Assembly: GCA_017412705.1 (NCBI GenBank)
Contig: JAFPWS010000034.1
Coordinates: 1-47,473 of the forward strand
Reading direction: 5' to 3'
Source of the DNA: Prevotella sp.
GTDB taxonomy: Bacteria > Bacteroidota > Bacteroidia > Bacteroidales > Bacteroidaceae
Length of the DNA stretch: 47,473 nt
A model generated the notes under the pieces. That model saw only the letters and a program-made list of their open reading frames with translations, did not search any database and was not told where the DNA came from. Of the stretch, positions 17,094 to 35,098 are shown one piece after another. Position 1 is the stretch's first letter. Every line of letters begins with the position of its first letter. Made by a program: the position numbers and the translations under genes.

Positions 17094-20000
17094 ACTGCTC
17101 ATCGTCTTATTGGCCATGCTGCCGATTGTGGGTGTGGCGAAGAAAAAGAAAGAGGTAAAGCCCGCTGTCAGCACCTCGTGGCTGCGTGTTGAGAATCTGG
17201 AGAACCCCATGGGCATCGACACTGCCGAGCCGCGTTTCTCATGGACCATCCTTTCCGACAAGCAGGATGTGCGACAGACGGCCTACCAGATTGTGGTATC
17301 GACCGACAAGGGCGAGGTGTGGAACACAGGACGCGTCGAGAGCGACCAACAGCTCTGGGTGCGCTATCAGGGACAACCTCTGAAGAGCGCCACGCCGTGC
17401 ACGTGGAAAGTAAAGGTATGGACCAACGTCGGTGAGACGCCCTGGAGCGACGAAGCCAGCTTTGGCGTCGGACTGCTGAAGGAGAGCCACTGGACTGGTC
17501 GCTGGATTGGTCTGGAGCGTCTGTTGCCCGGCGAGGAGCGTGGCCTGCATACCCGCCTGGCCGCCCGCTATGTGCGCAAGGAGTTCCAGCTGGACAAGCC
17601 CGTCAAGCGAGCCATCGCCTATGTGGCAGGCATCGGGCTCCATGAGTTGCACGTCAATGGTGTAGCCTACAATCGCGAGGTGCTGCTGCCTATGCCCACC
17701 GACTATCGCAAGACGGTGCTCTACAATACCTACGATATCACCAGCAGTCTCACCTCTAACCCCTCACCCCTAACCTCTAAGCATTGCATCGGACTCATCT
17801 TAGGCAATGGCCGCGTGTTCCCCATGCGTCAGAACAAGCCCTACAAGGCCCCTGTCTTCGGACTGCCCAAATGCCGCATCAATATCCTCATCGAGTTTAC
17901 CGACGGTACCACCAAGCGTATCTCAACTGACGAGAAATGGAAGATAACCGCCAATGGCCCTATCCGCTCGAACAACGAGTACGACGGCGAGGAGTATGAT
18001 GCCCGTAAGGACCTGACAGGATGGGACGAGGTGGGCTATGACGACAAGGCCTGGCAGCCTGCTGAGCGCACGGAGATACCCCTTGGCACCCTGCGTGCCC
18101 AGATGGCACCAGGCATGGAGATGGCACCGCTGACCCCAGAACCCACCGTTCTCACCTCTAACCTCTTACCTCTAACCTCTAAAATCTACGACTTCCACCA
18201 GAACACGGCTGGCTGGATAGCCTTTGTGCCTATGGGCAAAGAGGGCGATACCATCCGCGTGAAATATGCCGAGAAGCTAAATGCCGACGGCACACTCTAT
18301 CTGGAGAACTTCCGCGATGCCCGTTCCGAGGACATCTACGTCTGCGGCAAGACACCGCGGGCAGAAGAGTGGCACGCCATCTTCAGCTATCATGGTTTCC
18401 GCTATGCCCAGATAACAGGCCCTGTGAAGGATGTCCATGCCTATACCGTCAGCGACGACATCCAGCAGTTAGGCCACTTCGAGTGTTCTGACACCGTATT
18501 GAACAAGGTGATGCACAATGCCTGGTGGGGCATCTACAGCAACTATAAAGGCATGCCCGTCGACTGTCCGCAGCGCAACGAGCGACAGCCCTGGCTGGGC
18601 GACCGCACCGTAGGGTCGCTGGGCGAGAGCTTCCTCTTCAACAACGAGCGGCTCTACACCAAGTGGATGCGCGACATCTGCGAGTCACAGCGCGAGGATG
18701 GTGTCTTCTCAGACGTAGCTCCTGCCTTCTGGAACTACTACAACGACGACGTCACATGGCCTGCCGCCCTACCCTTCAGCTGCGACATGCTCTACCGCCA
18801 GTTCGCCAACCGTGAGGCCATCGACAAGTCATATCCTTATATCAAGCGCTGGCTGCAGCATCTGCTGGACGAATACCAGCAGGACGGCATCATCACCAAA
18901 GACCAGTATGGCGACTGGTGTGTGCCCCCCGAGAAGCTGGAACTCATCCATTCGCAAGACCCCGCCCGTAAGACCGACGGCGCACTCATCTCGACGGCCT
19001 ACGTCATCCGCGTCATGCAGCTGTTGGAGCAGTGGGGTTGCGAGGCAGCCCACTGGAAACCCATCCGCGAGCAGATGACGGACGCGTTCAACAAGCGTTT
19101 CCTGACCGTCAGGCGCGCCACCTCGTCCCGTCCCGGTCATGTGCTCTATCCAGACTCCGTCTATTACGGCAACAACACCGCAACGGCCAACCTGCTGCCG
19201 CTGGCCTTTGGCATTGTTCCCGACGACTGCAAAGACGATGTGGTGAAGCAGGTGGTGCAGAATATCTGCATCAAGAACAAGCACCACGTGTCGTGTGGCG
19301 TCATTGGCATCTCGTGGCTCATGCGAGGCCTCAGCGATAATGGTTTTGCCGATGTGGCCTATCGCCTGGCAACCACCAAGACCTACCCCTCGTGGGGATA
19401 TATGACGCAAAACGGCGCCACGACCATCTGGGAGCTGTGGAACGGCGACAAGGCCTCGCCCAAGATGAACAGCGGCAACCACGTCATGCTCCTGGGCGAC
19501 CTGATGACCTGGTGCTACCAGTACTTAGGCGGTATCCGGCAGGCAGCCACCGTTCCCGACGGTTCTAAGGCCACTGTTCCCGCAGGTTTTTCTGCGGGCT
19601 ACAAGCACATCGTGCTGAAGCCCGCCTTCGACATCCAGGACTGCGAGTGGGCTAACGTCAGCTACGACTCGCCCTACGGCACCATCAAGAGCCACTGGCG
19701 CAAGACGCTGCAGCATCTGGAGTGGGATGTGACGATTCCCTGTAACACAACAGCAGAGGTCTGCCTGCCCAATGGCGAGACGAAGACCGTCGGTTCCGGC
19801 TCGTACCACTTCAGTGTCGATATCCCCACCTCGCATCCTGCCATCGTGAAAGATGAGTTCCTCTACGAGCACACCTACTTCCCTGAGGCCCACGCCTCCA
19901 CCATTGTCGAACGGAGGAATGGCGACCTCGTGGCAGGCTACTTCGGGGGCACCCACGAGCGCGACCCCGACGTCTGCATCTGGGTGAACATCAAGAAGAA

Positions 20001-21033
20001 AGGCTCTGACGAGTGGAGCAAGCCCATACTCGCTGCCGACGGCGTACTGAGTCTCGACGACCCCGACGCCAAATACATGGGACTCTCCGGTTTGGAGGAC
20101 GATACGACCCCTGCTACTGCCGGTCCTATCCGTTCAGCAAGCCGAGGCAATGTCTCGGCAAACGGGAGCAAAGATGAAGAAAGCTACGACTACGTCACCA
20201 AGACTACGCGCCTCACAAAAGTCTCTGACCGCCTGAAGCGCAAGGCGTGCTGGAACCCCGTGCTTTTCGAGATGCCTGACGGCGAGCTGTGGCTCTTCTT
20301 CAAGATAGGCACCACCGTAGGCGACTGGACGGGCTGGCTCACGAAGTCGAAAGACGGAGGCCGCACGTGGAGCAAGAAGGAGCCGCTGCCCTACGACGCA
20401 GAAGGTCGTGCTTTCCTTGGACCCATCAAGAACAAGCCCGAGCTGATTAATGGCCGCCTGCTCTGTCCCTCGTCTACAGAGAATAACGGCTGGCGTTTTC
20501 ACATGGAGATTCTCGACCTGAAGACCAAGCAATGGAAGTATGTTCCCGTAGAGAGCACAGAGGCCGTCAAGTCCGACGACAACAAGCTGCACCCCATCGA
20601 CTGCATCCAGCCGTCCATCCTTAAGCTGAAGGACGGTCGTCTGCAGGTGCTGATGCGCACGCACAATGCTCATATCGCGACCTCATTCAGCAGCGATAAC
20701 GGCGACTCGTGGACACCCGTCACGCTGCTCGACATCGAGAACAACCAGAGCGGCACCGATGCCGTTTCTCTACAAGACGGTCGTCATGCCCTCATTTACA
20801 ACAATTTCGAGACGCTGCCCCTGACCCCTAAGGGTGTGCGCACGCCGGTGTCGATAGCTCTGAGCCCAGACGGCACCCGCTGGCAGCACGTGCTGACGCT
20901 CGAGGACTCGCCCATCGACCAGTACTCCTACCCCGCCATCATTCAGGGCCGCGACGGCACGCTGCATTGCGTCTACACCTGGCGCCGCCAGCGCGTCAGC
21001 TACAAGCAGATAGACCTCAAGAAACTGAAATAA
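17086..21033 (+). CDS. GH78 alpha-L-rhamnosidase fused to a BNR/sialidase-like propeller
   Basis: I start this 1315-residue protein at ATG 17086 (MNRLLIVLLAMLPIVGVAKKKK, a signal peptide); the open frame goes further up but only inside the GH140 gene, which it overlaps by 8 bp. Residues about 25-905 are GH78: the LRVENLENPMGIDTAEPRFSW start, beta-sandwiches, then the (alpha/alpha)6 barrel with DCPQRNERQPWLGDRT (about 489-504). Residues about 912-1315 form a BNR-type propeller with Asp-box-like SKDGGRTW, SSDNGDSW and SPDGTRW and an ending SYPAIIQGRDGTLHCVYTW. Rhamnose removal is expected; the second domain may be another exo-glycosidase. Four extra segments, at 17751, 18151, 19546 and 20130, look inserted in frame. 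Confidence 0.88.
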   Translation: MNRLLIVLLAMLPIVGVAKKKKEVKPAVSTSWLRVENLENPMGIDTAEPRFSWTILSDKQDVRQTAYQIVVSTDKGEVWNTGRVESDQQLWVRYQGQPLKSATPCTWKVKVWTNVGETPWSDEASFGVGLLKESHWTGRWIGLERLLPGEERGLHTRLAARYVRKEFQLDKPVKRAIAYVAGIGLHELHVNGVAYNREVLLPMPTDYRKTVLYNTYDITSSLTSNPSPLTSKHCIGLILGNGRVFPMRQNKPYKAPVFGLPKCRINILIEFTDGTTKRISTDEKWKITANGPIRSNNEYDGEEYDARKDLTGWDEVGYDDKAWQPAERTEIPLGTLRAQMAPGMEMAPLTPEPTVLTSNLLPLTSKIYDFHQNTAGWIAFVPMGKEGDTIRVKYAEKLNADGTLYLENFRDARSEDIYVCGKTPRAEEWHAIFSYHGFRYAQITGPVKDVHAYTVSDDIQQLGHFECSDTVLNKVMHNAWWGIYSNYKGMPVDCPQRNERQPWLGDRTVGSLGESFLFNNERLYTKWMRDICESQREDGVFSDVAPAFWNYYNDDVTWPAALPFSCDMLYRQFANREAIDKSYPYIKRWLQHLLDEYQQDGIITKDQYGDWCVPPEKLELIHSQDPARKTDGALISTAYVIRVMQLLEQWGCEAAHWKPIREQMTDAFNKRFLTVRRATSSRPGHVLYPDSVYYGNNTATANLLPLAFGIVPDDCKDDVVKQVVQNICIKNKHHVSCGVIGISWLMRGLSDNGFADVAYRLATTKTYPSWGYMTQNGATTIWELWNGDKASPKMNSGNHVMLLGDLMTWCYQYLGGIRQAATVPDGSKATVPAGFSAGYKHIVLKPAFDIQDCEWANVSYDSPYGTIKSHWRKTLQHLEWDVTIPCNTTAEVCLPNGETKTVGSGSYHFSVDIPTSHPAIVKDEFLYEHTYFPEAHASTIVERRNGDLVAGYFGGTHERDPDVCIWVNIKKKGSDEWSKPILAADGVLSLDDPDAKYMGLSGLEDDTTPATAGPIRSASRGNVSANGSKDEESYDYVTKTTRLTKVSDRLKRKACWNPVLFEMPDGELWLFFKIGTTVGDWTGWLTKSKDGGRTWSKKEPLPYDAEGRAFLGPIKNKPELINGRLLCPSSTENNGWRFHMEILDLKTKQWKYVPVESTEAVKSDDNKLHPIDCIQPSILKLKDGRLQVLMRTHNAHIATSFSSDNGDSWTPVTLLDIENNQSGTDAVSLQDGRHALIYNNFETLPLTPKGVRTPVSIALSPDGTRWQHVLTLEDSPIDQYSYPAIIQGRDGTLHCVYTWRRQRVSYKQIDLKKLK
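17751..17780 (+). repeat. In-frame CTAACC-type repeat inside GH78
   Basis: CACCTCTAACCCCTCACC followed by CCTAACCTCTAA encodes LTSNPSPLTSK in the GH78 part. The same type of run occurs again 400 bases on. It keeps the reading frame and falls between two secondary-structure elements. Confidence 0.65.
18151..18182 (+). repeat. Second in-frame CTAACC-type repeat inside GH78
   Basis: Four near-repeats of CCTCTAA/CCTCTTA encode LTSNLLPLTSK. It resembles the run at 17751 in both DNA and peptide (LTSN...PLTSK) although the flanking GH78 sequence is unrelated. Confidence 0.65.
19546..19599 (+). repeat. In-frame palindromic insert in GH78 (two units)
   Basis: GCCACCGTTCCCGACGGTT (19546-19564) is followed directly by a second unit with the hairpin CCCGCAG/CTGCGGG (19579-19585/19592-19598). 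Together they encode ATVPDGSKATVPAGFSAG, placed between LGGIRQ and YKHIVLKP where GH78 proteins usually have only a few residues. The first unit recurs at 28994 and 30959. Confidence 0.75.
20130..20165 (+). repeat. In-frame palindrome in the BNR part
   Basis: Stem GCCGAG/CTCGGC (20141-20146/20154-20159) sits inside an outer stem CCGTT/AACGG (20130-20134/20161-20165). It encodes part of PIRSASRGNVSANGSKDEES, a polar, low-complexity segment within the propeller. Confidence 0.6.
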
Positions 21034-21062
21034 ACAGAAATAACAAACATACCGAAACAACT

Positions 21063-21719
21063 ATGAAGCATGTCATTTGCGTACACACGGCCATGGCCCT
21101 GGTAGAGCCATTGACCAAGACTTTTGCAGAACTATTGCCGGAAGTGAAAGTCGACCACATTGCCGACTCGTCACTTATCAAGGAAGTGATTGCCAACAAT
21201 CAGGTGACGCCTGCCGTCCGCCGCCGCCTGCTGTCCTACTATAATGCAGCAGCCGATGCAGGAGCCGATGTGGTTTTCAATACTTGCTCCAGCGTGGGTG
21301 ATGTAGCCGACTATGGCAATCAGTATGCACGCATTCCTGTTTTCCGCATCGACCAGCCGATGGCTGCACTGGCTGTACAGAATTACAACCGTATCGGTGT
21401 CATCTCGACGCTGCCTACCACACTCGACCCTACCTGCCGTTTGTTACAGAACGAGGCCAAGAATGCCCGGCGCGATGTCGTGCTGGTGGAAGGGCTGGCC
21501 GATGGTGCCTTTGCTGCCGGACAGAGTGGTGATGGCGAGACACACGACCGACTGATTGCCGAGGCTGCCCAGCGTATCGCCTCTCAAGTCGATATGTTTG
21601 TGCTGGCTCAAGGCTCTATGGCCCGCATGGAACAGCGTCTTTCTGAGCTGACAGGCAAGCCTGTGCTGTCGAGTCCTGTACTGGGCGTAAAGGGTCTGCG
21701 CAAGTTCTTAGGTCTATGA
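21063..21719 (+). CDS. Asp/Glu/hydantoin racemase-family protein
   Basis: The 218-residue protein starts at ATG 21063, 29 nt after the GH78-BNR gene; the frame is open further upstream but only over that gene's end. It shows the racemase fold: VVFNTCSSVGD supplies the first expected catalytic Cys, and NYNRIGVISTLPTTLDPT the middle. Where true racemases have a second Cys (often GCT), it reads LAQGSMARM, so a two-base racemase mechanism is unlikely; an isomerase or lyase role is possible. No signal peptide, so cytoplasmic. Its stop overlaps the MFS start (ATGA), so the two are translationally coupled and may handle the same sugar-derived acid. Confidence 0.8.
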   Translation: MKHVICVHTAMALVEPLTKTFAELLPEVKVDHIADSSLIKEVIANNQVTPAVRRRLLSYYNAAADAGADVVFNTCSSVGDVADYGNQYARIPVFRIDQPMAALAVQNYNRIGVISTLPTTLDPTCRLLQNEAKNARRDVVLVEGLADGAFAAGQSGDGETHDRLIAEAAQRIASQVDMFVLAQGSMARMEQRLSELTGKPVLSSPVLGVKGLRKFLGL

Positions 21720-22924
21720 AGCGTAAAAATGTCATCCTGACCATGCTCGTCATTCTGGGCATGGTCACTTTCTTGGATAGAATCAACATCAGCGTGGCAG
21801 GGTCGAGCATCATGCACGACCTGCAGCTCTCGCCGTCGCAATGGGGATGGGTGCAAAGTGCCTTTATCCTCTCTTACGGTCTGATGCAGATTCCCATGGG
21901 AGCCTTAGGCGACCGTTTCGGACATCGCAGCATATTGTCGCTCATCGTACTCTGGTGGTCGTTGTTTACCGCCTTCACGGGACTGGCAGGAGGATTGGCC
22001 TCGCTATTGGTCATCCGCTTCATGTTCGGCATCGGCGAGGCAGGCTCTTCACCCTGTTCGACGGGCGTCATCAGCCGTTGGTTCCAGAAAGACGAGGTTG
22101 GCAAGGCACAGGGCTATGTGTGGGCGGCCAGTCGTATGGGAGGCGCCTTGACACCGTTCGTTGTCATTCCCGTCATGGTGACTGTCGGTTGGCGTGCCGC
22201 ATTCTATCTGCTGGGAGCGTTGGGAATCATTTGGGCCATCGTGTGGTGGCTATATTATAGAGACGCTACCCCGTCTGGTATGACGAGTTCTACGAGTAAA
22301 ACCGCCATTCCTTGGACAGCCTTGCTTCGTGCACCGCAGTTCTGGCTTATCTGCGGCATGTACTTCTTCTATGCCTTCGGTTCGTGGTTCTTCTTCTCGT
22401 GGTTCCCGACATTCATGGAACTGGGTCGCGGTTTCGATAAATCGGAGTTGACCTATGCGGTGGCTGTCCCCTTCGTTATGAGTATGATAGGTAATATTGC
22501 CGGAGGACATCTGACGGACAGACTGACCCAGCGATACGGTATCAAAATCGGACGTAAGGCATTGGGCTCTACGTCGTTGGCCGTCTCTGCCGTGTGTATG
22601 TTCTTGGCTGCATTTATTCCTGGCAAGATGGCGGTTTTCGTATTCCTCTCGCTGTGTTTCGGCATTTTCGACTTGATGCTGCCCTCTGCCTGGGCACTAT
22701 GCATCGATTTGGGCAAGCGTCATGCGGGTACCCTTAGTGGAGCCATGAATACCGCAGGCAACATCGGTGGTTTCTGTTGCGGCATTCTCTTTGGCGAACT
22801 GGTTCAGCAGTCGGGCAACTACAATCTGCCCCTCTACATGATTGCCGTGATGCTCATCGTGAGTGCTGTACTCTTTGCTTTCATCAATCCTGAGAAGCCG
22901 ATAATTTCAGATAAACCTCTTTGA
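21716..22924 (+). CDS. MFS permease, anion:cation symporter (ACS) type
   Basis: The 402-residue protein has 12 predicted membrane helices and the MFS loop signature GDRFGHRSIL after helix 2. Its start (FLDRINISVAGSSIMHDLQLSPSQWGWVQSAF) is typical of the ACS group that includes galactonate, glucarate and hexuronate transporters. It probably imports a sugar acid across the inner membrane by proton symport. It is the last gene of the GH140-GH78-racemase operon, with a 4-bp ATGA overlap to the racemase-family gene. Its last 41 bases overlap the 3' end of the kinase gene on the other strand. Confidence 0.87.
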   Translation: MKRKNVILTMLVILGMVTFLDRINISVAGSSIMHDLQLSPSQWGWVQSAFILSYGLMQIPMGALGDRFGHRSILSLIVLWWSLFTAFTGLAGGLASLLVIRFMFGIGEAGSSPCSTGVISRWFQKDEVGKAQGYVWAASRMGGALTPFVVIPVMVTVGWRAAFYLLGALGIIWAIVWWLYYRDATPSGMTSSTSKTAIPWTALLRAPQFWLICGMYFFYAFGSWFFFSWFPTFMELGRGFDKSELTYAVAVPFVMSMIGNIAGGHLTDRLTQRYGIKIGRKALGSTSLAVSAVCMFLAAFIPGKMAVFVFLSLCFGIFDLMLPSAWALCIDLGKRHAGTLSGAMNTAGNIGGFCCGILFGELVQQSGNYNLPLYMIAVMLIVSAVLFAFINPEKPIISDKPL

Positions 22925-24101
22925 GCGAGCCTTCGTTGCCTACGTTGCCTGGGAAGATGATATAAGGGAAGTCTTGTGTCATCACACAAGGCACACTCGA
23001 AATAATCTGTCCCATGACACGAGCCGTCTTGATGCCAAGTCCCTTGGTCAGGATGTCGTGCGAGGTAATGCCGCCCTTGCCCACTAAGTACGAAGGCGTG
23101 AAAGGCAGGCGGCAAACAATATCGACCAGGAAGTTGCTAACCTGCTGACCCAGGCGCTGCCGTTGGTTGGCATCGTCAAGACGAATCTCCTGACGAGAGG
23201 TATAGACGATGGGGGTCAGATGGTTGTCCACCACCTGCTGGACAGTATCGAGCGTCTCCAGTATCAGCGCGTCAGCATCGTCCAGTATACGTTGCACATC
23301 CACCTCAACGGCACAGGTGCCTGCGGCCTGCAGCAACTGTTCCAGTTGTCGGGTGGTCTTTTTGACATGTGAGCCGACCACGAAACAGCCCACGCCTTGT
23401 TTCCTCAGCATACTGCGGTCCAACAGGGGTATGTCGGGAATGCCGCTGATGGCCTTGGGCAGCGACGACGACGAACGGATAATCATGTGCTCAACGATTT
23501 TGCCGTCGAGAACAATATCTGCAAACGCATACAATTCGTCATACGACTGGGCATTGACGATGGTATAGTCGTCAGGACGAGCCCCCTTTTCCTTGATATA
23601 CTCCGTAAGTACGCTGGTATGGTAGGCAAACACATTGTCGCGTGCAAATTCCGTCTCGCTGACAGGAATGAGCCGTTCGCCATCCTTCATGTAGTGTATG
23701 CCGTCTATCGTCACACGACCAGCCTCGATGAAGGCCGGACAGAAGGGAGTCTTAGCCGCCACGTCATAGCCGTGACGTACAAGCACTTCACGCATGACAT
23801 CCGTCTCTAACGGGAAGTGGCCTCGCAGACAACTGTCGCTGCGACTGACGACAATCAGGCGGTAGTTGTAGTCACGATTCACTCTGACCACCATTTCCAT
23901 CGTTTCACGGGTTACGTCCGCAGCCTCTTCACGAGTCATGGCCCGCGTATTTGTCAGGATGTAGAAGAAAGGCTCCTTGTCCTCAAAGGCCAGACGTATG
24001 CTCTCCTCGTCCCATTGGGTAATCAGCAGACAACCGTGTACGGTCTGTATGCCTGTCGGGTCGTCGTCAAGCACGACCATCTTCCATCTTATTTCTTCCA
24101 T
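22884..24101 (-). CDS. Four-carbon acid sugar kinase family protein (DUF1537)
   Basis: The protein (about 405 residues) has the N-terminal substrate domain with VVLDDDPTGIQTVHG and RSDSCLRGHFPLE and the C-terminal nucleotide-binding domain with LVGKGGITSHDIL and FPGNVGNEGSLKEVY, the marks of DUF1537 kinases such as OtnK, DtnK and OiaK. These phosphorylate tetronates, 3-oxo-tetronates or 3-oxo-isoapionate. I use ATG 24101; GTG 24113 (4 codons longer) and ATG 24080 are alternatives. It follows the BKACE gene by a few bases, so the two form an operon, convergent with the racemase-MFS operon. The presence of an apiosidase nearby makes an apiose-derived substrate worth testing. Confidence 0.87.
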   Translation of the reverse strand: MEEIRWKMVVLDDDPTGIQTVHGCLLITQWDEESIRLAFEDKEPFFYILTNTRAMTREEAADVTRETMEMVVRVNRDYNYRLIVVSRSDSCLRGHFPLETDVMREVLVRHGYDVAAKTPFCPAFIEAGRVTIDGIHYMKDGERLIPVSETEFARDNVFAYHTSVLTEYIKEKGARPDDYTIVNAQSYDELYAFADIVLDGKIVEHMIIRSSSSLPKAISGIPDIPLLDRSMLRKQGVGCFVVGSHVKKTTRQLEQLLQAAGTCAVEVDVQRILDDADALILETLDTVQQVVDNHLTPIVYTSRQEIRLDDANQRQRLGQQVSNFLVDIVCRLPFTPSYLVGKGGITSHDILTKGLGIKTARVMGQIISSVPCVMTQDFPYIIFPGNVGNEGSLKEVYLKLSASQD

Positions 24102-24116
24102 CTTATCGCTCACTTC

Positions 24117-24947
24117 CTACTTCTTAATGTGTTGCATCTCACGGGCTTCAGCCGGTGTGGCAGGTTCACAGCCCATCATGCGAATCAGGGCCACCAGTCG
24201 TTCCACCAGTTCGGCATTGGTATGTGCCCGCTTGCCTGGGGCATAATAGAAACTGTCCTCGAAGCCGACACGTACTGCTGAGGCTCCCATGCCTATCGCA
24301 CAGGCCAGCATGGAAAAGTCTTTCATCGAATCGTGGGTGATACCCCAGCTGCAGCCAGGCTCCATCAGCGAGCAGAGCATGGCCAGGTTCCTGCCTGTAG
24401 CCGAGAGATTGCTGGAATTGCCCGGTCCTACGCAGAAGTTATAGTGCAGCGGACGGTGAATGACACCCTCGTCAGCCAGACGGGTAGCACACTCTACGTG
24501 GCTGAGGTCGAACAATTCCATCTCAGGCACGGTGTTGGTCTCGTCCAGTCGCTTGGCCCAGTAACGCAGGTCGGGCATCGTATTGATGTAAACCGTCTCA
24601 CCGAAATTCACAGAACCCATATTCAGCGAAGCCACCTCCACTTCCGGCACATCCAGCGACACACAGCGCTCGGCCAGCGTCAGCGTCGACAGACCTCCCG
24701 TCGAACCCTGCACAATCATATCTGTCTCCTTACGGATGAGTCCGATGGTCTGGCGGAACACGTCCAGTTCGAATGTCGGGTTGCCTTGCAGGTCGCGTGT
24801 ATGCAAATGCACCTCGCAGGCACCGGCCTTATAGCAATTGATGGTATCTTCCGCTATCTCCTCGGGGGTCAGCGGATTCTTACACTCAGCGGGAATCTCC
24901 TTGCCAACATGGCAAACGGGCGCTACTGTTACGATGATTTTTCTCAT
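24117..24947 (-). CDS. BKACE family beta-keto acid cleavage enzyme (DUF849)
   Basis: The 276-residue protein matches the BKACE/DUF849 family. These zinc TIM-barrel enzymes condense a beta-keto acid with acetyl-CoA, giving acetoacetate and a new acyl-CoA. The zinc ligands are visible: His47 and His49 in EVHLHTRD, and Glu230 in VRVGFEDSFYY, matching the positions known for the founding enzyme Kce. Length is typical. It is cytoplasmic and first in a two-gene operon with the DUF1537 kinase. Its promoter region is shared with the divergent gene at 25148. The true substrate may be an oxidised, branched or four-carbon sugar acid; that is inference from context only. Confidence 0.88.
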   Translation of the reverse strand: MRKIIVTVAPVCHVGKEIPAECKNPLTPEEIAEDTINCYKAGACEVHLHTRDLQGNPTFELDVFRQTIGLIRKETDMIVQGSTGGLSTLTLAERCVSLDVPEVEVASLNMGSVNFGETVYINTMPDLRYWAKRLDETNTVPEMELFDLSHVECATRLADEGVIHRPLHYNFCVGPGNSSNLSATGRNLAMLCSLMEPGCSWGITHDSMKDFSMLACAIGMGASAVRVGFEDSFYYAPGKRAHTNAELVERLVALIRMMGCEPATPAEAREMQHIKK

Positions 24948-24957
24948 GTCTTCCTTA

Positions 24958-24996
24958 GTTTTAAAATTAGACTCACAACCCTCCTTTTTGTCATCA
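24958..24996 (-). promoter_or_regulatory. Shared TGATGACA...AGTCT element (copy B)
   Basis: On the minus strand TGATGACAAAAAGGAGGG is followed by GTGAGTCTAATTTTAAAAC, 49 nt before the BKACE start. It mirrors the copy at 25089 that faces the divergent gene. Confidence 0.5.
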
Positions 24997-25106
24997 GCCC
25001 GTCAAAGAAAAAGGCCCCTATCCTTACGATGAGACAGAAGGAGGGACTGAAGGGGTTTTGCCCCGTCCTTGAGGATAGGAGCCTTTTATGATGACAAAAG
25101 GGCGGG
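24979..25106. repeat. 128-bp interrupted inverted repeat between divergent genes
   Basis: The outer arms 24979-24996 and 25089-25106 match as inverted repeats at 16 of 18 bases (TGATGACAAAA core). A second pair of arms, GGCCCCTATCCTTA (25013-25026) and TGAGGATAGGAGCC (25070-25083), matches closely. A small GGGG-TTTT-CCCC hairpin (25051-25064) lies in the centre. It places the same upstream element in front of both the BKACE gene and the 25148 gene. Confidence 0.8.
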
Positions 25107-25129
25107 AAGTCAGTCTTTAATATATAAAC
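25089..25129 (+). promoter_or_regulatory. Shared TGATGACA...AGTCTT element (copy A)
   Basis: TGATGACAAAAGGGCGGG then AGTCAGTCTTTAATATATAA lies 59 nt before the start at 25148. No TAnnTTTG box is visible here, so this conserved element may contain the promoter itself. Confidence 0.55.
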
Positions 25130-25147
25130 AGAAACCAGTCAATAGAC

Positions 25148-27790
25148 ATGAGAAGAAGCATCGTTTTAAGCATCGTATTGTGCCTGACGCTGACCATGAT
25201 GGCCCAGCGGGTGAGCATTGTGACAGGAAAAAAAGCCACCAACCGTGAGCAGTATGCTGCCGGGTATCTGAAGAAGAAACTCACGGCAATGGGCTATGAA
25301 GTGACGGCCAAGAAAGGGCCGCGCATCACGCTCACCAATGCTGCTACAGGTACAGCAGAGGGCTACACCATCACCAAAGACGAGAAAGGGATAGTGGTAT
25401 CGGGCAACGACGCCACGGGTGTCATCTACGGTTGTGTGGAACTGGCTGACCGCATCCGCCAGAAGGGTTCGCTGGATATTGAGCCTGTGGAGGAGACTCC
25501 AGGAATGGTGATGCGCGGCACGTGTATCGGACTGCAAAAGACGGTGTATCTGTCTGGACATGCTGTCTATGAGTATCCCTACACGCCGGAGAACTTCCCC
25601 TGGTTCTACGACAAAGCGGAGTGGATCAAGTACCTCGACATGATGGTGGAGAACAAGATGAACTCGCTGTACCTCTGGAATGGCCATCCCTTTGCCTCGC
25701 TGGTGAAGTTGAAGGACTATCCCTTCGCGTTGGAGGTGGACGAGGAGACCTTTAAGAAGAACGAGGAAATCTTCTCATTCCTGACCCATGAAGCTGACAA
25801 ACGCGGCATCTGGGTGATTCAGATGTTCTATAACATCATCCTGAGCAAGCCTTTTGCTGACCACTACGGTCTGAAGACGCAGGACCGCAACCGCCCCATC
25901 ACGCCATTGATTAGCGACTACACGCGCAAGTCGATTGCCGCCTTCATCGAGAAGTATCCCAACGTGGGCCTGCTGGTATGTCTTGGCGAGGCCATGGCGA
26001 CGATAGACGACGACGTGAAGTGGATGAAGGAGACGATTATTCCCGGCATCCTTGACGGACTAGGCCCCTCTCTCAAAGGGGCAAGGGGTTTACCTCCCAT
26101 CGTGCTTCGTTCGCACGATACGGACGGGCCGTTGGTGCTGAAGGAGTCGCTGCCTCTCTATCCCAACATCTACACCATGTCGAAATATACGGGCGAGTCG
26201 CTGACCACCTATCAGCCTGGCGGACCATGGGGTGAGACGCACCGCCAGCTGGCGGAGGCTGCTCCCGTTCACATCGACAATGTACATATCCTGGCCAATC
26301 TGGAGCCTTGGCGCTGGTCAAGCCCCGCCTTCATAGAGAAGACGGTACAGGCCATGCACCGCGTACACCACTCCAAGGGCCTGCACCTCTATCCGCAGGC
26401 TTCCTATTGGGACTGGCCCTATACGGCAGACAAACTGCCTGGTGGTGAACGCCAGAAGCAGTTGGACCGCGACTGGATGTGGTATCAGGCGTGGGGCCGC
26501 TATGCGTGGAACGACCAGCGTGGCGAGGATAAGACGTATTGGAAACGTGAGTTGGCTGAATACTACGGTATCGACACCATCGCTGCAGGTCATCTGCTGA
26601 ATGCCTACGACGAGGCTGGCGAGATAGCCCCCAAGCTCTTGCGTCGCTTCGGCATCACCGAGGGCAACCGTCAGACGCTGCTCTTAGGTATGACGATGGG
26701 ACAGTTGGTGAATCCTTACAAGTACACCATCTATCCGGGCTTCTACGAGAGCTGCGGACCCGAGGGTGAGAAACTCATCGAGTACATCGAGAAAGAATAC
26801 AACGGTCAGGCGCACAAGGGTGAGCTGCCTTTCGACATCGTCGACCAGTGTGTGAATCATGGTGACCGCGCCCTCGTCGAGATGGCAGCGATTACCGCCA
26901 AACCCACCCGTCATGCTGACGAGTACCAGCGTGTATGGAACGACTTCCGCTGCTATGCCCTGTTTGCCAAAGCTTTCCAGTTAAAGGTGCGTGCTGCCGC
27001 TGAGGTACTGCGCTACAAGTGGACGAAGGATATCACCCATCTGGAGTCGGCAGTCAGATGGCTGGAACAGAGCAACAGTACTTGGAACGACCTGTGTCAG
27101 CTGACCGACGAGACCTACCTCTATGCCAACTCCATGCAAACTGCCCAGCGTCGAGTGCCTGTAGGCGGCGATGGCGGTAAGATGAAGACATGGAGTGAAC
27201 TGGCTGTGGTCTATCAGGAAGAACTCGATGCCTTTAAGGAGAATATCGAAAAACTGAAACACCCTGTGGCTCAGACGGATGTCAAGATACTGCCTGCAAA
27301 CAATGCCAAGGTCAGCTATCAAGGAGCCACCGTTATACTGCAGAAGGGCGCTATTCTTTTTGAAAAGCGTCCAGACACACCTGTCGATTCCATTGCGCCT
27401 GAGTTGGCAGGTCTTCAGGCCCTCGTGCTGAATCGTGACACCACCCGCATCGTTGGAACGACGATTGCTTTCGAGAGTGACAAACCCGTCAAAGTGCTTG
27501 TGGGGCTTTTCAAGGATGATGACAAGAAATTCGCCAAGGCACCCAAACTCGAGATTGACGCTACAGGCAATGAGTACGGTCAGGCAGAGCCCATCCTGAC
27601 GAATGCCATCAGCATTGTGCAGATGCCCAAGGTTAATATCCACCAGTATTCGCTGCCAGCAGGTCGCCATACGTTGCGATTGCCAAAGGGCATCCTGATG
27701 GTGGCTGGTTTTACAGATAGTACAATCAACCCACGTGACTGTGGCCTGAATGGTCCATCTACTGAAGTGGACTGGTTGTTCCAAAAATAA
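25148..27790 (+). CDS. GH67-N-domain-like glycoside hydrolase, unclassified
   Basis: This 880-residue secreted protein (signal peptide ending TLTMMAQ) begins with a small alpha/beta domain seen before GH67-, GH115- and GH84-type barrels (about 20-125: QYAAGYLKKKLTAMGYEV, then VVSGNDATGVIYGCVELADRI). A TIM-barrel-like region follows (GMVMRGTCIGLQKTVYL; KYLDMMVENKMNSLYLWNGHPF; NVGLLVCLGEAM; PPIVLRSHDTDG), then a helical region and a C-terminal beta domain. It resembles alpha-glucuronidase relatives but is much longer than GH67, and I cannot fix a family or substrate. An in-frame hairpin at 26064 inserts GPSLKGARG before LPPIVLR. It is followed after 6 nt by the GH43-like/GH2 gene. Confidence 0.7.
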   Translation: MRRSIVLSIVLCLTLTMMAQRVSIVTGKKATNREQYAAGYLKKKLTAMGYEVTAKKGPRITLTNAATGTAEGYTITKDEKGIVVSGNDATGVIYGCVELADRIRQKGSLDIEPVEETPGMVMRGTCIGLQKTVYLSGHAVYEYPYTPENFPWFYDKAEWIKYLDMMVENKMNSLYLWNGHPFASLVKLKDYPFALEVDEETFKKNEEIFSFLTHEADKRGIWVIQMFYNIILSKPFADHYGLKTQDRNRPITPLISDYTRKSIAAFIEKYPNVGLLVCLGEAMATIDDDVKWMKETIIPGILDGLGPSLKGARGLPPIVLRSHDTDGPLVLKESLPLYPNIYTMSKYTGESLTTYQPGGPWGETHRQLAEAAPVHIDNVHILANLEPWRWSSPAFIEKTVQAMHRVHHSKGLHLYPQASYWDWPYTADKLPGGERQKQLDRDWMWYQAWGRYAWNDQRGEDKTYWKRELAEYYGIDTIAAGHLLNAYDEAGEIAPKLLRRFGITEGNRQTLLLGMTMGQLVNPYKYTIYPGFYESCGPEGEKLIEYIEKEYNGQAHKGELPFDIVDQCVNHGDRALVEMAAITAKPTRHADEYQRVWNDFRCYALFAKAFQLKVRAAAEVLRYKWTKDITHLESAVRWLEQSNSTWNDLCQLTDETYLYANSMQTAQRRVPVGGDGGKMKTWSELAVVYQEELDAFKENIEKLKHPVAQTDVKILPANNAKVSYQGATVILQKGAILFEKRPDTPVDSIAPELAGLQALVLNRDTTRIVGTTIAFESDKPVKVLVGLFKDDDKKFAKAPKLEIDATGNEYGQAEPILTNAISIVQMPKVNIHQYSLPAGRHTLRLPKGILMVAGFTDSTINPRDCGLNGPSTEVDWLFQK
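26064..26082 (+). repeat. In-frame hairpin in the 25148 gene
   Basis: GCCCCT/AGGGGC form a 6-base stem around CTCTCAA, followed by AAGGGG. It encodes part of GPSLKGARG just before the conserved-looking LPPIVLRSHDTDG strand. It belongs to the same CCCCTC/AAAGGGG type as 28412 and 31263. Confidence 0.6.
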
Positions 27791-27796
27791 AATGCA

Positions 27797-30700
27797 ATGA
27801 TGAAAAGGAAACTCCTCGCTTTACTTGTCTTCGTCAGCCTGACGGCCTCTGCCCAGCAGATTGCCGACGATGTCATGCAGCGCATCTACCAAGAGGTGCG
27901 CACCCCCTATAAATACGGCTTGGTGGTGGCCCCCACGGACAATTACCACAAGATAGACTGTCCTACCGTCTTTCAACAAGATGGCAAATGGCTGATGACC
28001 TACGTTGTCTATAACGGCAAGGAGGGACTTGACGGACGAGGCTACGAGACGTGGCTGGCCAAGAGCGATGACCTGCTGCACTGGCAGACTTTGGGACGCA
28101 TCCTGTCGTATAAGGACGACGGTTGGGACATGAACCAGCGAGGCGGTTTCCCTGCCCTCATCGACTGGACGTGGGGCGGTAGCTATGGTATTGCGAAATA
28201 TAAGAATAACTACTGGATGACCTATATCGGTGGTCACGGCACAGGCTATGAGGCTGTGCGCGAGCCGCTGAACATCGGTATGGCGTGGACAAAGGACGAC
28301 ATCACCCAGGCCCATGAGTGGCAGTCAGACGATAAGCCTCTTATGAGCATTAATGACAAAGACGCGCAATGGTGGGAAAAGTTAGTGCAATATAAGAGTA
28401 CTATCTATAGCCTCCCCAGCCCTTCTCCAAAGGGCGAGGGGAGTGGTTTGCCCAAAGAACTGGCAAAATACCGTTTTGTGATGTTCTATAATGCAGGAGG
28501 TATCAATCCAGATAACAAGCTGAAGGCAGAACGGATTGGAATTGCCCTGTCGAACGACCTCAAGAAATGGAAGCGCTATGACGGCAACCCCGTCTTTGCC
28601 AACGAGGTGGGTGGTATCATCACGGGTGATGCACAGATTGCCAAGATGGGCGACCACTATGTGATGTTTTATTTCAAGGCCTACGACCCGTCGCGCAAAT
28701 ATAATGCTTTCAATACCTTTGCGGTCTCTAAAGACCTCATCCACTGGCAACGTTGGGAGGGTGAAGACCTGATATGGCCTACTAAGCCGTACGACGAGAT
28801 GTTTGCCCATAAGAGCTATGTGGTGAAGCACGATGGCGTGGTATACCATTTCTATTGTGCCGTCAACAACGACCAGCAGCGAGGCATTGCCGTGGCCACC
28901 AGCGTGCCGATGGGCAGGAGTCATGCATCCTTCCCGGCGCCTGAACGAAAGGGGCGCCGCGCCATTACCCCTCTCAACGAAGGCTGGACGGCCGCCACCG
29001 TTCCCGACGGTTTTCCGTCGGGAGTCAACCTCCCCCATAACTTCGACGACTACTACGGCTACCGCCAGCTGCGTCATGGCAACCTGCACGGAAAGGCCGC
29101 CTATCACAAGACTTTCACTACTAAGAAGCAGGAAGGCAAACGCTATTTCCTCCAGTTCGAAGGTGCGGGCACCTATGCCACCGTTACCCTTAACGGCCAT
29201 CCATATCCTGAAGAGCTGGTAGGTCGTACCGTCTGGACGCTCGATGTGACAGACCACCTGCGGAATGGCAGCAACGACCTGGAAGTGGCAGTCAACCATC
29301 CTGCCATGCAGACCACTTCGCCCTGGGTCTGCGGTGGCTGTAGCAGCGAATGGGGCTTCAGCGAGGGCAGTCAGCCTTTTGGCATCTTCCGACCAGTCTC
29401 GCTCATCGAAACCGATGCCATCCGTATTGAGCCCTTCGGCGTTCACATCTGGAACAACGCGGCCTGCGACTCGGTCTTCATTGAGACTGAGGTCAGAAAC
29501 TACACCAGCCAACCCCAGACCATCGAGCTTGTCAACAAGTTTACGCTGGCCTCCGGCAAGCAAGTGTTCCGTCATGCCAGCCCCGTCGTGCTCAAGGCTG
29601 GTGAGAACAAGACCTTCCGCGACGCCGAACACATAGAGGAAGTTCATCGCTGGTCCCTGCAAGACCCTTACCTCTATACGCTCACCACGATGATCAAGCG
29701 CGACGCCAAGACCACTGACGAGGTGCGCACCCCGTTTGGCATCCGCTCCGTCTCATGGCCTGTGTTACGCAAGGATGGCGACAATCGTTTCCTGCTCAAC
29801 GGACAGCCCGTCTTCATCAATGGCACGTGCGAGTACGAACACCTGTTGGGCAACAGCCATGCCTTCACCCCTGAACAGATTCGCTCGCGCATCAAGCAGA
29901 TTACCAATGCCGGCTTTAATGCGTTGCGTGAGGCCCACCAACCCCACAACCTGCTCTACCAACAGCTGTGCGACGAACAGGGGCTGCTCTTCTGGAGTCA
30001 GTTCTCGGCCCATATCTGGTATGACACGCCTCAGTTCCGCGAGAACTTCAAGCGTCTGCTCGTCCGCTGGATCAAGGAGCGTCGCAACTCACCCTCTGTC
30101 ATCCTGTGGGGCCTGCAGAACGAGAGTGTGTTGCCGAAGGACTTTGCCGAGGAGTGCTGCGACATCATCCGCTCACTCGACCCCACCTGCCAAGGGCAAC
30201 GTGCCATCACCACCTGCAACGGCGGTGAAGGAACAGACTGGAACGTCATCCAGAACTGGAGCGGCACCTATGGCGGTTCGGCTGAGAACTACGACAATGA
30301 GCTGAAGCGTCCCGACCAGCTGCTCAATGGCGAATATGGCGCTTGGCGCACCATCGACCTGCACGGCGATGCGAAATACAGCGAAGAGAGTTTCACCAAA
30401 CTGTTGGATACCAAGGCCCGCTTGGCTGAGAAGGCCTTTGCGGCCGGCAGTTCCCCTACCGACACATCCCTCGGTGTCTGCGGCCACTTCCAATGGATTT
30501 TCAACTCGCACGACAATCCCGGTCGGGTACAACCTGACGGCGCCTACCGTCGCATTGACAAAATCGGCCCTATCAACTACAAGGGTCTTGTCACCTCATG
30601 GGAAGAGCCTACCCCAGCCTACTATATGTATCGCCAGCGCTATGCCACAAAAAGTCCTGTAGGCAGTGGCATTACCGCTGCTGATAGGAACATCGACCTC

Positions 30701-31672
30701 GTGAAAGGTGCAGAGGGTTACCACTATCTCTATCGCATCAACTGCGGTGGCGATGCCTTCGTTGACGAGTTTGGCCAGCAATGGCAGGCCGATGATACCA
30801 TCCACAGCCATTCATGGGGTCAGGACTTCGAGGGCATCCATGCCGTACAGGCCTCGCAGCGCCACATCACTGCCGACATCCGTGGCACGAAGAGCGACGA
30901 GCTGTTCCAGTTCTTCCGTTTCGGTCGCCACCGCCTGTGGTACGACTTACCAGTACCCGCCACCGTTCCCGACGGTTCTCCGTCGGGCCTCTACCGTATC
31001 GAGCTTTACTTTGCCGAGCCTTGGCACGGACGTGACGCCTCAGAGACTGCCGACTATGAAGGACTGCGCATCTTCGACGTAGCCGTCAATGGGCAAACCC
31101 TCATCGACGACCTTGACCCATGGGCTGAGGCCGGCTACTGCGGGGCGCTGAAATATGTCGTTACGGCAAAAGCCGACAATGGTCGCCTCCGCATCTCCTT
31201 CCCGGAAGTCAAGGCTGGCCAGGCCGTCATCTGCGGCATTGCAGTGGGAAGCACCCTCCCTTCCTCCCCCCAAAGGGGAGGTGACGGGTCAGTGGTCTGG
31301 CGCGCCTTCGACACCGACACCATCGCCAAGCTGCCCAAGGAAGAACTGCCCAAGGACACCGAGGCTCGTCCTGCAAGCGTCTGCCAGCCCACAGGCAAAT
31401 CCCTGACGTCCTTCATCATCAAACCGGGACTGGGACAGGAATATGCCCTCCGCTTCCGATACAAGAACACAACGGGCCAGCCTGTTACTGCCCGCATGAC
31501 GGTTACCGATTCCAAGAAAACGGTACTGGTGGACCGCGATGTCACCTTCCCGCCAACGCCCAACAAGTTCAAGATGCTCAGCACCACCACAGGCACGCAG
31601 ATCAATGCCGGCACCTATACGGTCAGAGTAGACACCAAAGATATCGAATTCAAAGAACTGGAAATACAATAA
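27797..31672 (+). CDS. Multidomain glycoside hydrolase: GH43-like propeller, GH2, malectin-like
   Basis: The 1291-residue secreted protein (signal peptide ending TASAQ) has three parts. Residues about 25-375 are a five-bladed propeller of the GH43/GH32/GH117 type (DNYHKIDCPTVFQQDGKWLMTYV, LAKSDDLLHWQ, ITGDAQIAKMGDHYVMFY). Residues about 395-990 are a GH2 enzyme with acid/base Glu776 (LWGLQNES) and nucleophile Glu846 (LLNGEYGA). The C-terminal part contains a malectin-like domain (YRIELYFAEPWHG, LRIFDVAVNGQ). Two exo-enzymes in one chain could remove neighbouring sugars from the same branch; the sugars cannot be named. Five short hairpin segments sit in frame at domain loops. It follows the 25148 gene by 6 nt. 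Confidence 0.85.
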   Translation: MMKRKLLALLVFVSLTASAQQIADDVMQRIYQEVRTPYKYGLVVAPTDNYHKIDCPTVFQQDGKWLMTYVVYNGKEGLDGRGYETWLAKSDDLLHWQTLGRILSYKDDGWDMNQRGGFPALIDWTWGGSYGIAKYKNNYWMTYIGGHGTGYEAVREPLNIGMAWTKDDITQAHEWQSDDKPLMSINDKDAQWWEKLVQYKSTIYSLPSPSPKGEGSGLPKELAKYRFVMFYNAGGINPDNKLKAERIGIALSNDLKKWKRYDGNPVFANEVGGIITGDAQIAKMGDHYVMFYFKAYDPSRKYNAFNTFAVSKDLIHWQRWEGEDLIWPTKPYDEMFAHKSYVVKHDGVVYHFYCAVNNDQQRGIAVATSVPMGRSHASFPAPERKGRRAITPLNEGWTAATVPDGFPSGVNLPHNFDDYYGYRQLRHGNLHGKAAYHKTFTTKKQEGKRYFLQFEGAGTYATVTLNGHPYPEELVGRTVWTLDVTDHLRNGSNDLEVAVNHPAMQTTSPWVCGGCSSEWGFSEGSQPFGIFRPVSLIETDAIRIEPFGVHIWNNAACDSVFIETEVRNYTSQPQTIELVNKFTLASGKQVFRHASPVVLKAGENKTFRDAEHIEEVHRWSLQDPYLYTLTTMIKRDAKTTDEVRTPFGIRSVSWPVLRKDGDNRFLLNGQPVFINGTCEYEHLLGNSHAFTPEQIRSRIKQITNAGFNALREAHQPHNLLYQQLCDEQGLLFWSQFSAHIWYDTPQFRENFKRLLVRWIKERRNSPSVILWGLQNESVLPKDFAEECCDIIRSLDPTCQGQRAITTCNGGEGTDWNVIQNWSGTYGGSAENYDNELKRPDQLLNGEYGAWRTIDLHGDAKYSEESFTKLLDTKARLAEKAFAAGSSPTDTSLGVCGHFQWIFNSHDNPGRVQPDGAYRRIDKIGPINYKGLVTSWEEPTPAYYMYRQRYATKSPVGSGITAADRNIDLVKGAEGYHYLYRINCGGDAFVDEFGQQWQADDTIHSHSWGQDFEGIHAVQASQRHITADIRGTKSDELFQFFRFGRHRLWYDLPVPATVPDGSPSGLYRIELYFAEPWHGRDASETADYEGLRIFDVAVNGQTLIDDLDPWAEAGYCGALKYVVTAKADNGRLRISFPEVKAGQAVICGIAVGSTLPSSPQRGGDGSVVWRAFDTDTIAKLPKEELPKDTEARPASVCQPTGKSLTSFIIKPGLGQEYALRFRYKNTTGQPVTARMTVTDSKKTVLVDRDVTFPPTPNKFKMLSTTTGTQINAGTYTVRVDTKDIEFKELEIQ
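28412..28443 (+). repeat. In-frame hairpin in the GH43-like part
   Basis: CTCCCC-A-GCCCTT pairs with AAGGGC-GA-GGGGAG around a 5-base loop, a 12-pair stem. It encodes LPSPSPKGEGSG between TIYS and LPKELAKYRFVMFY. Confidence 0.75.
28935..28959 (+). repeat. In-frame hairpin at the propeller/GH2 junction
   Basis: CGGCGCC (28935-28941) pairs with GGCGCCG (28953-28959) around an 11-base loop. It encodes part of FPAPERKGRRAI just before the GH2 start LNEGW. Confidence 0.6.
28994..29022 (+). repeat. In-frame GCCACCGTTCCCGACGG hairpin in GH2
   Basis: After GCCACCGTT, the 8-base arms CCCGACGG/CCGTCGGG (29003-29010/29015-29022) close on TTTT. It encodes ATVPDGFPSG between LNEGWTA and VNLPHNF. The same unit occurs at 30959 and, in part, at 19546. 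Confidence 0.8.
30959..30987 (+). repeat. In-frame GCCACCGTTCCCGACGG hairpin in the malectin-like part
   Basis: This copy differs from the one at 28994 by a single loop base (TTCT instead of TTTT) over 29 bases. Arms are 30968-30975 and 30980-30987. It encodes ATVPDGSPSG between WYDLPVP and LYRIELYFAEPW. Confidence 0.8.
31263..31281 (+). repeat. In-frame hairpin in the C-terminal part
   Basis: CCTCCCC (31263-31269) pairs with GGGGAGG (31275-31281) around CCAAA... It encodes LPSSPQRGGDGS between CGIAVGST and VVWRAF and matches the CCCCTC/AAAGGGG type. Confidence 0.7.
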
Positions 31673-31685
31673 ACGTTATATAGCT

Positions 31686-35098
<3,413 letters not shown>

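Follow-up and report, generated by a model that had tools for sequence, protein, structure and literature searches.

Repetitive extragenic palindromes (REPs) have been found inside open reading frames (ORFs) of several species (PMC3733652). TnpAREP subclass 2.4 (group 4 of the REP-associated tyrosine transposases, RAYTs), abundant in Bacteroidetes and Cyanobacteria, has in-frame REPs inside the tnpAREP genes themselves, and enzymes of this HUH class act on hairpins in single-stranded DNA (ssDNA) (PMC6006769). For heptanucleotide repeats, polymerase slippage has been proposed, and TAACTGA arrays occur in some Bacteroidetes (PMC4679880). Here we analyze a 47,473-nt contig (JAFPWS010000034.1, "the window") of a Prevotella sp. 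draft genome (GCA_017412705.1; G000, the source genome, 3.42 Mb in 96 contigs, 86% complete), in which a first-pass annotation had marked ten in-frame hairpin elements inside three carbohydrate-active enzyme (CAZyme) genes and likened them to Rickettsia palindromic elements (RPEs). Among gut and rumen Prevotella relatives this phenomenon is largely real and broad, wider than had been noted, but it is a mixture. Judging from sequence comparison, two of its components, palindrome families B and D, appear to be REP-like elements that we consider, with moderate confidence, to be spread most likely by a cognate diverged HUH enzyme and kept in frame in variable loops. For one of the hairpin families, spread is probably linked to a transposase-like gene, whose coding sequence itself contains copies of that hairpin.

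Family B is dispersed and read in one register

Family B has the 32-nt consensus GCCACYGTK-CCCGACGG-TTYT-CCGTCGGG, read ATVPDGxPSG, and its pattern occurs twice in the window against 0.00 expected. A covariance model (R1) was built from eight copies and searched against DNA only, so that the reading register was free to vary. The searches covered 200 genus genomes, 301 family genomes and the source genome; fetched loci, genomes and contigs carry L-, G- and C-numbers, contigs being those of G000 unless stated. In the source genome the model returned 11 matches at E<=0.005 (one pair on apparently redundant contigs), contradicting the alternative, raised in the first-pass annotation, that the units occur nowhere else in that genome. 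One stretch, including its B copy and C-type elements, is common to contigs C61 and C95 (L069, L076; L007, L011), either because these are redundant in the draft or through duplication. Family B was found in 59 of the 200 genus genomes, with up to 23 copies, and in 19 of the 301 family genomes, the single-contig genomes G429 and G444 among them. Genes bearing B include those for AlaRS, MetRS, ClpB, SufB, XseA (exonuclease VII), MurF-Alr, ComEC and an MFS permease, all confirmed by Pfam, as well as an epimerase and CAZymes. Tandem arrays of B occur, and lineage-typical variants (ATTPDG in L136, VPAG/FPAG in G083, VPGG/FPPG in G072, VPEA in G096) look as if they came from local amplification. 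One scan of viral contigs gave 24 pattern stretches, none of them a relative, with plasmid and phage records outside the search.

The register was scored in 105 B copies distinct by their flanks, a non-random sample of the best copy per genome, extra copies from B-rich genomes and those of the source genome. A codon-usage test, for which the three CAZyme families served as the training set, classed 60 copies as confidently coding, 4 as edge cases and 41 as intergenic or unclear. The coding copies comprised 52 in forward phase 0, 6 in reverse phase 0 and one each in forward phases 1 and 2; a single register thus accounts for 58 of the 60 (p 1.7e-25 against an expectation of 1/3), and the stem reads P-D-G-x-P-S-G in forward and reverse copies alike. 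Like RPEs, which are in-frame palindromes in unrelated genes likely to encode functional proteins, and like the intragenic GTAG/CGTC REPs, B consists of short palindromes translated inside ORFs (PMC3733652). Unlike B with its coding fraction and fixed register, the GTAG/CGTC REPs are described as mostly intergenic, with many intragenic copies in DNA synthesis and repair genes (PMC3733652). The likeness to RPEs proposed at first pass held up: the elements lie in frame and dispersed in unrelated genes, most homologues lack them, and further copies exist in the same genome. It is a likeness by description, with differences in host (Prevotellaceae, not Rickettsia) and in the presence here of a candidate cognate enzyme.

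One register in 58 of 60 copies might also result from selection on the peptide, with ATVPDGxPSG a favored turn that arises repeatedly and the hairpin incidental; native VPDG at the 30959 site in relatives fits such an origin. The stem argues otherwise. In alignments A2 and A3, which were made with the B model and are hence biased towards it, 99.0% of stem cells paired with double changes in 6 of 8 pairs (A2; reached by 0 of 500 shuffles), and covariation was 0.321 against 0.092 in shuffles and far above slid controls, with 2 and 3 of the 500 shuffles attaining the observed value for two lesser measures (A3). The hairpin is therefore conserved at the DNA level. Compensating stem changes alter the peptide while keeping the pairing (VPAG/PAG, VPEG/PSG, VPVG/PTG, VPTG/PVG), and copies also occur reversed and, in some cases, outside genes. 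Peptide convergence was rejected on the strength of these compensatory changes, leaving peptide-level selection a very improbable account.

A diverged HUH gene holds palindromes in its coding sequence

In the source genome a single gene, C61:28894-30063, contains three B copies, and its product has the motifs DHIH and YLDDNPRR. Sixteen HUH proteins of this type were compared; D-H-x-H and Y-x-x-DNPRR are invariant in all 16. Each matches NCBIfam REP_Tyr_transpos (NF047646) at E<=1 (best 1.9e-10), and 12 match Pfam Y1_Tnp at the same threshold, the source-genome member scoring 18.3 against a cut-off of 23. Also conserved in all 16 is a C-terminal domain about 150 aa long (GVLVSAAIS..EK..MREAM.RGY; alignment A5), for which no Pfam family was found and which shows only weak similarity to DprA (E 0.22).

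Relatives of the HUH gene, both subfamilies described below counted together, occur in 100 of the 200 genus genomes: 50 of the 59 with B and 50 of the 141 without (p 1.4e-10, uncorrected for phylogeny), including 21 of the 22 genomes with at least four B copies. In the family sample minus the genus the gene is present in 12 of 16 genomes with B versus 54 of 263 without (p 1.1e-5, likewise uncorrected). Generic IS200-like transposases were rejected as the driver, PF01797 being present in 34 of 59 genomes with B versus 63 of 141 without (p 0.12). At 13 Y1 loci of B-bearing genomes (L276, L278-L289) and at the 30 Y1 loci L246-L275, with flanks of 1.5-3 kb that were shorter at contig ends, the only B match at E<=1 was one in L286, 11 kb from its Y1 gene.

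Thirty HUH loci were sorted by the loop, the stretch between the HUH and tyrosine (Tyr) motifs, and comprised nine subfamily i long-loop genes, ten subfamily i short-loop genes, nine subfamily ii genes and two without a subfamily. Family B (E<0.05) lies in the loop of 8 of the 9 long-loop genes, five times as an inverted pair, and was not seen adjoining these genes in the nine loci. It lies within 150 nt 3' of 5 of the 10 short-loop genes (one at E 0.04). No B was found in subfamily ii genes (0/11, two source-genome paralogues included; p 7e-5), most of which hold a second palindrome, family D, with the consensus TGTTGNRNY-nnn-RNYNCAACA; D in turn was found in none of the nine subfamily i long loops.

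The HUH gene could instead be a passenger with a tolerant loop, the palindromes spreading by template switching, gene conversion or another transposase. The same elements do accumulate in other CAZyme loops (at 26064, 27 of 76 distinct sequences have a filling, as described below), replacement rather than clean insertion of residues fits template switching, and the gene is present in those 50 of 141 genomes that lack B. Against a passenger role stand the partition of B and D between the loops of the two subfamilies, the B copies just 3' of the short-loop genes, and the replication of the association outside the genus. We regard the passenger explanation as rather unlikely.

For family D, a written prediction that both other HUH paralogues of the source genome would carry loop palindromes held in its first part: C18 has GCTGAGGC-agt-GCCTCAGC twice and C78 has TGTTGCGTT-gcc-AACGCAACA. 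A D model (R2) built from seven loop hairpins found D in L360, L361, L365 and L366, all outside the model, and none in L356 and L359. Twenty freshly fetched HUH loci gave D in 12 and B in 1; wherever D and a resolved ORF were both present, D lay inside the loop (8/8), although the L392 loop is nearly identical to an R2 training sequence. Over 44 resolved HUH genes (10 of the 54 loci were unresolved, and L370 and L373 repeat L363 and L359), 41 hairpins were counted in 1981 loop residues versus 21 in 14682 others, a 14.5-fold higher density in the loop. In the HUH gene of L369 (G045:C1:1836000-1840500), whose usual loop has neither B nor D, a palindrome CAAGCGAT-nnn-ATCGCTTG occurs at the ORF's upstream end, inside the ORF and in the scanned stretch behind it.

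Family D also occurs near CAZymes in named genomes (R2 E down to 1e-6). Of 52 distinct places tested, 34 were confidently coding, 11 weak and 7 intergenic. Phase 2 (VATxSQQ) accounts for 24 of the coding places, four of them in HUH genes and several at a single site inherited from a common ancestor; 8 are in phase 0 (CDSVAT), and 2 in phase 1, one being a match shifted by one base and the other the window site placed by hand. Stem covariation was 0.396 versus 0.178 in shuffles, with score and paired cells above the shuffles; further pair types fell below every shuffle, and 52 of 500 shuffles had at least as many double-changed pairs.

Several observations weigh against spread of B and D by a cognate HUH enzyme. 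Nine of the 59 genomes with B had no detected HUH gene (metagenome-assembled genomes being incomplete), 50 genomes without B had one in a search that counts both subfamilies, and the co-occurrence p-values ignore phylogeny. The source-genome member scores 28 bits against the NF047646 curated cut-off of 80, and generic Y1_Tnp genes show neither association with B nor adjoining B. The second part of the prediction, recurrence of the paralogues' palindromes elsewhere in the source genome, held only loosely, the R2 coding matches there having other stems (C67, E 0.006; C63, E 0.06). There is no obvious GT[AG]G foot on B, the intergenic or unclear class makes up 41 of the 105 B copies (although some, as in L290 and L291, lie inside ORFs in the same register), and native residues were replaced at several insertion sites, an outcome for which simple insertion gives no explanation. 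The HUH loop may also be one more tolerant loop, though the match between subfamily and palindrome argues otherwise.

The insertion sites appear to be variable loops

For comparison, 19 homologues were used for the GH78 gene and 29 apiece for the two other CAZyme genes. The first-pass annotation had treated all ten segments as extra, and this was borne out for some sites. Those at 17751, 18151, 19546 and 30959 are extra relative to most homologues; the 30959 site is empty in L028, L032, L036, L037, L041 and L042, and the B site at 19570 in L189, L193 and L194. The 28412 segment is a variable insert, present also in L028, L029 and L034 with other fillings elsewhere, and the 20130 segment is missing in the two closest relatives, with a different segment of similar length in the more distant L192 and L195. 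The segments at 26064 and 28994 are replacements and not additions, the former with a net gain of 2 aa and the latter exchanged for about 12 native residues without adding length. The 28935 segment was excluded as an inserted element, its peptide (FP..E..G.R) being aligned in 17 of 17 resolved homologues. Where the same peptide recurs at the same site in other species, it does so in a minority of relatives only and partly with other stems.

Sister species fill one and the same loop with different material, a stronger picture than the first-pass annotation had drawn. The 18151 loop holds a heptamer array in the nearest homologue L187, a triple B tandem with a degenerate first unit in L188 and, by eye, a C-type hairpin in L190. 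The 19546 loop of L187 and L188 contains B as well, with the stem CCCACAGG/CCTGTGGG instead of the window's CCCGCAGG/TCTGCGGG. B-type copies are found in L078 and L092 at the 30959 loop and, at the 28994 loop, in L136 as well as in L114, where the copy is reversed. The 31263 loop is filled differently in other species, with D palindromes in L087, L095, L096, L106, L113 and L121; in L054 the matching loop contains a 9-base array, ACCTATAAG, read TYKTYK. Among 76 distinct sequences of the 26064 loop, 49 are native-like (<=8 residues) and 27 are filled: 9 by hairpins, 5 by heptamer arrays, 5 by B and 8 by other material, in classes assigned by simple rules; by eye, the "other" class includes some D copies.

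The two heptamer arrays, at 17751 and 18151, have 7-bp tandem units like the heptanucleotide simple repeats of PMC4679880. They differ from the arrays described there in lying within genes, in sharing loops with palindromes and in having unit changes that avoid stops. A pure ACCTCTA-type array reads TAA in every frame; the unit that would do so is TCA in the 17751 array and TTA in the 18151 array. A 386-kb sample of the source genome, window included, contains 12 period-7 arrays, 7 of them inside mechanically called ORFs, with one masked contig set aside.

To what extent such loops are ordinary, fast-evolving low-complexity sequence, with hairpins and repeats as by-products of codon bias and slippage and no mobile family, can be judged from 110 loci of the GH43/GH2 gene at 27797 (the window's included), which gave 91 distinct sequences, 65 with insertion segments. 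The 205 insertion segments of 6-40 aa (196 distinct, from relatives that are not independent) were set against 4100 core segments matched in length. Perfect hairpins of at least 8 bp occur in 21 of 205 insertions versus 11 of 4100 core segments (10.2% versus 0.27%, about 38-fold; p 5e-21), and period-7 repeats in 25 of 205 versus 9 of 4100 (p 7e-27). Period 9 was found in 4 of 205 versus 13 of 4100, and periods 5, 6, 8, 10, 11 and 12 in none of these segments. A further in-frame palindrome, CAGCGG-nnnn-CCGCTG (VSGxxAD), recurs in several loops of the 27797-type protein (P0002) in L110, L114 and L138. The low-complexity account fits the hypervariability of the loops and the heptamer arrays, and still applies to some parts of the C-rich and 20130 segments. 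For B and D it is contradicted by the recurrence of the same 32-nt sequence with a covarying stem in unrelated genes, and the hairpin enrichment in insertions over core also opposes it. As a general explanation it is very improbable.

The ten window segments

The segments lie in frame, with the sequence first described, inside three intact ORFs (Table 1): 17086-21033, with GH78 and BNR domains in Pfam; 25148-27790, with a domain of GH20 N-terminal type; and 27797-31672, the GH43/GH2 gene, with GH2 and malectin domains. The Pfam scan of these ORFs returned no GH43 match. For the 27797 protein, 80 named homologues were kept, with records from Prevotella, Prevotellaceae, Bacteroidales, Segatella or Palleniella, many of them from rumen or gut.

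Table 1. Repeat and hairpin features within the three CAZyme genes of the window
Feature	Position	Strand	Remarks
Heptamer array, ACCTCTA type	17749..17780	+	GH78-BNR gene; read SLTSNPSPLTSK; no hairpin; missing from L187-L189
Second heptamer array	18151..18183	+	GH78-BNR gene; read VLTSNLLPLTSK
Family B unit, truncated	19546..19569	+	Read ATVPDGSK; precedes full unit
Family B palindrome	19570..19601	+	Stem CCCGCAGG/TCTGCGGG; read ATVPAGFSAG; R1 source-genome E 2.3e-5
D-like palindrome (weakest assignment)	20141..20159 (listed as 20130)	+	GCCGAGGC-aat-GTCTCGGC
C-rich hairpin, family C	26064..26082	+	Takes the place of native loop KASGRTDI
C-rich hairpin, family C	28412..28443	+	Read SLPSPSPKGEGSGL; z -3.2
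Hairpin-like stretch, conserved peptide, no element	28935..28959	+	z -1.45
Family B palindrome	28994..29025	+	9-bp stem; read ATVPDGFPSG
Family B palindrome	30959..30990	+	Read ATVPDGSPSG
C-rich hairpin, family C-like	31263..31281	+	z -0.84 only

The description of most segments as hairpins applies to part of the set. Folded as ssDNA, those at 19546, 28412, 28994 and 30959 reach z -3.2 to -3.8; those at 20130, 26064, 28935 and 31263 reach only -0.8 to -1.8, so that among the C-rich hairpins (26064, 28412, 31263) |z| exceeds 3 in 28412 alone; and no fold at all results for the arrays at 17751 and 18151 (0 kcal/mol). Folding and homologue comparison together rule out a single element family for all ten and distinguish at least four kinds. 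The hairpin count of the window was dropped as evidence: perfect hairpins of at least 8 bp number 8, against a mean of 5.9 and a maximum of 11 in 15 dinucleotide shuffles, an absence of excess that also counts in favor of the low-complexity account. The case therefore rests on recurrence and homologues.

The core of the 20130 palindrome resembles the loop hairpins of the C18 HUH paralogue, the link being this shared core only. The D model R2 did not report the window site, and L073 has a similar copy of its own, readable in the same register (frame by eye). Other window genes had been thought free of such elements; this is true for the B and heptamer patterns, the C type not having been scanned for there, and a weak D-model match at 43489 (E 1.4) was not counted. 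Rfam gave zero matches across 17000-32000. By eye, the intergenic stretch at 25001-25100, ahead of the 25148 gene, contains a long, imperfect hairpin, perhaps a terminator or leader.

Proposed mechanism and significance

Spread of B and D by a cognate HUH enzyme would proceed as follows. A diverged single-tyrosine HUH enzyme, a relative of the RAYTs, would recognize its cognate palindrome in ssDNA, a step suggested because subfamily and palindrome type match. Copies would then be placed at new genomic sites, as dispersal and lineage-specific variants indicate. Purifying selection would remove other registers and places and leave in-frame copies with an innocuous Pro/Gly/Ser reading in hot loops, to which register and placement point. 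Copies of the palindrome also lie in the HUH gene itself, in frame in the loop described above, or directly 3' of it. We infer that the HUH protein is what transposes the palindromes, and that their register is set by selection and not by a preference for targets. A separate route, most simply replication slippage, would have produced the two heptamer arrays (17751, 18151), which fill the same kind of loop.

REP-type features present here are the short palindrome, the many copies and the covarying stem; as to the REP foot (GT[AG]G/CGTC), B has a conserved 5' GCCACYGTK of which only the complement ends in GTGGC. As in TnpAREP subclass 2.4, there is an HUH/Y1 enzyme, the host phylum is the same, and the variable domain between the HuH and Tyr motifs is filled by in-frame REPs (PMC6006769). 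Unlike that subclass as described in the same source, the HUH proteins have a conserved C-terminal region of about 150 aa (PMC6006769 excepts 2.4 from the core-extended classes) and the motifs DH[IL]H and Y..DNP versus NH[IFV]H and YIxNNP, no GT[AG]G foot is obvious, spread into other genes is heavy, and two palindrome types are matched to two subfamilies. A more tentative possibility is that an HUH enzyme with a weakly DprA-like tail and its own palindrome, often an inverted pair, as a translated loop form one reading unit per subfamily; a register readable in either orientation might let the element spread through genes and generate loop peptides proteome-wide, essential enzymes included.

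The general kind, in-frame REPs that also lie inside tnpAREP genes, is already known (PMC3733652, PMC6006769), and the first-pass remark that no such description is known in this group holds to the extent that none was found for Prevotella in literature that mostly excluded subscription papers. New as far as searched are the Prevotellaceae families, the fixed register, the match between subfamily and palindrome, and the loops shared by palindromes and heptamers. To our knowledge, no enzyme that would account for the spread of in-frame palindromes such as RPEs has been assigned to them. A candidate enzyme that shares its genomes with the elements, and whose gene contains matching palindromes, makes RPE-type spread directly testable, and the hosts are gut and rumen bacteria of which some relatives are cultured. 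For annotation the elements carry a warning, in that many insertions and deletions in Prevotella proteins are repeat DNA; for the biology of these bacteria, they are a possible origin of inserted loops in CAZymes and in essential proteins.

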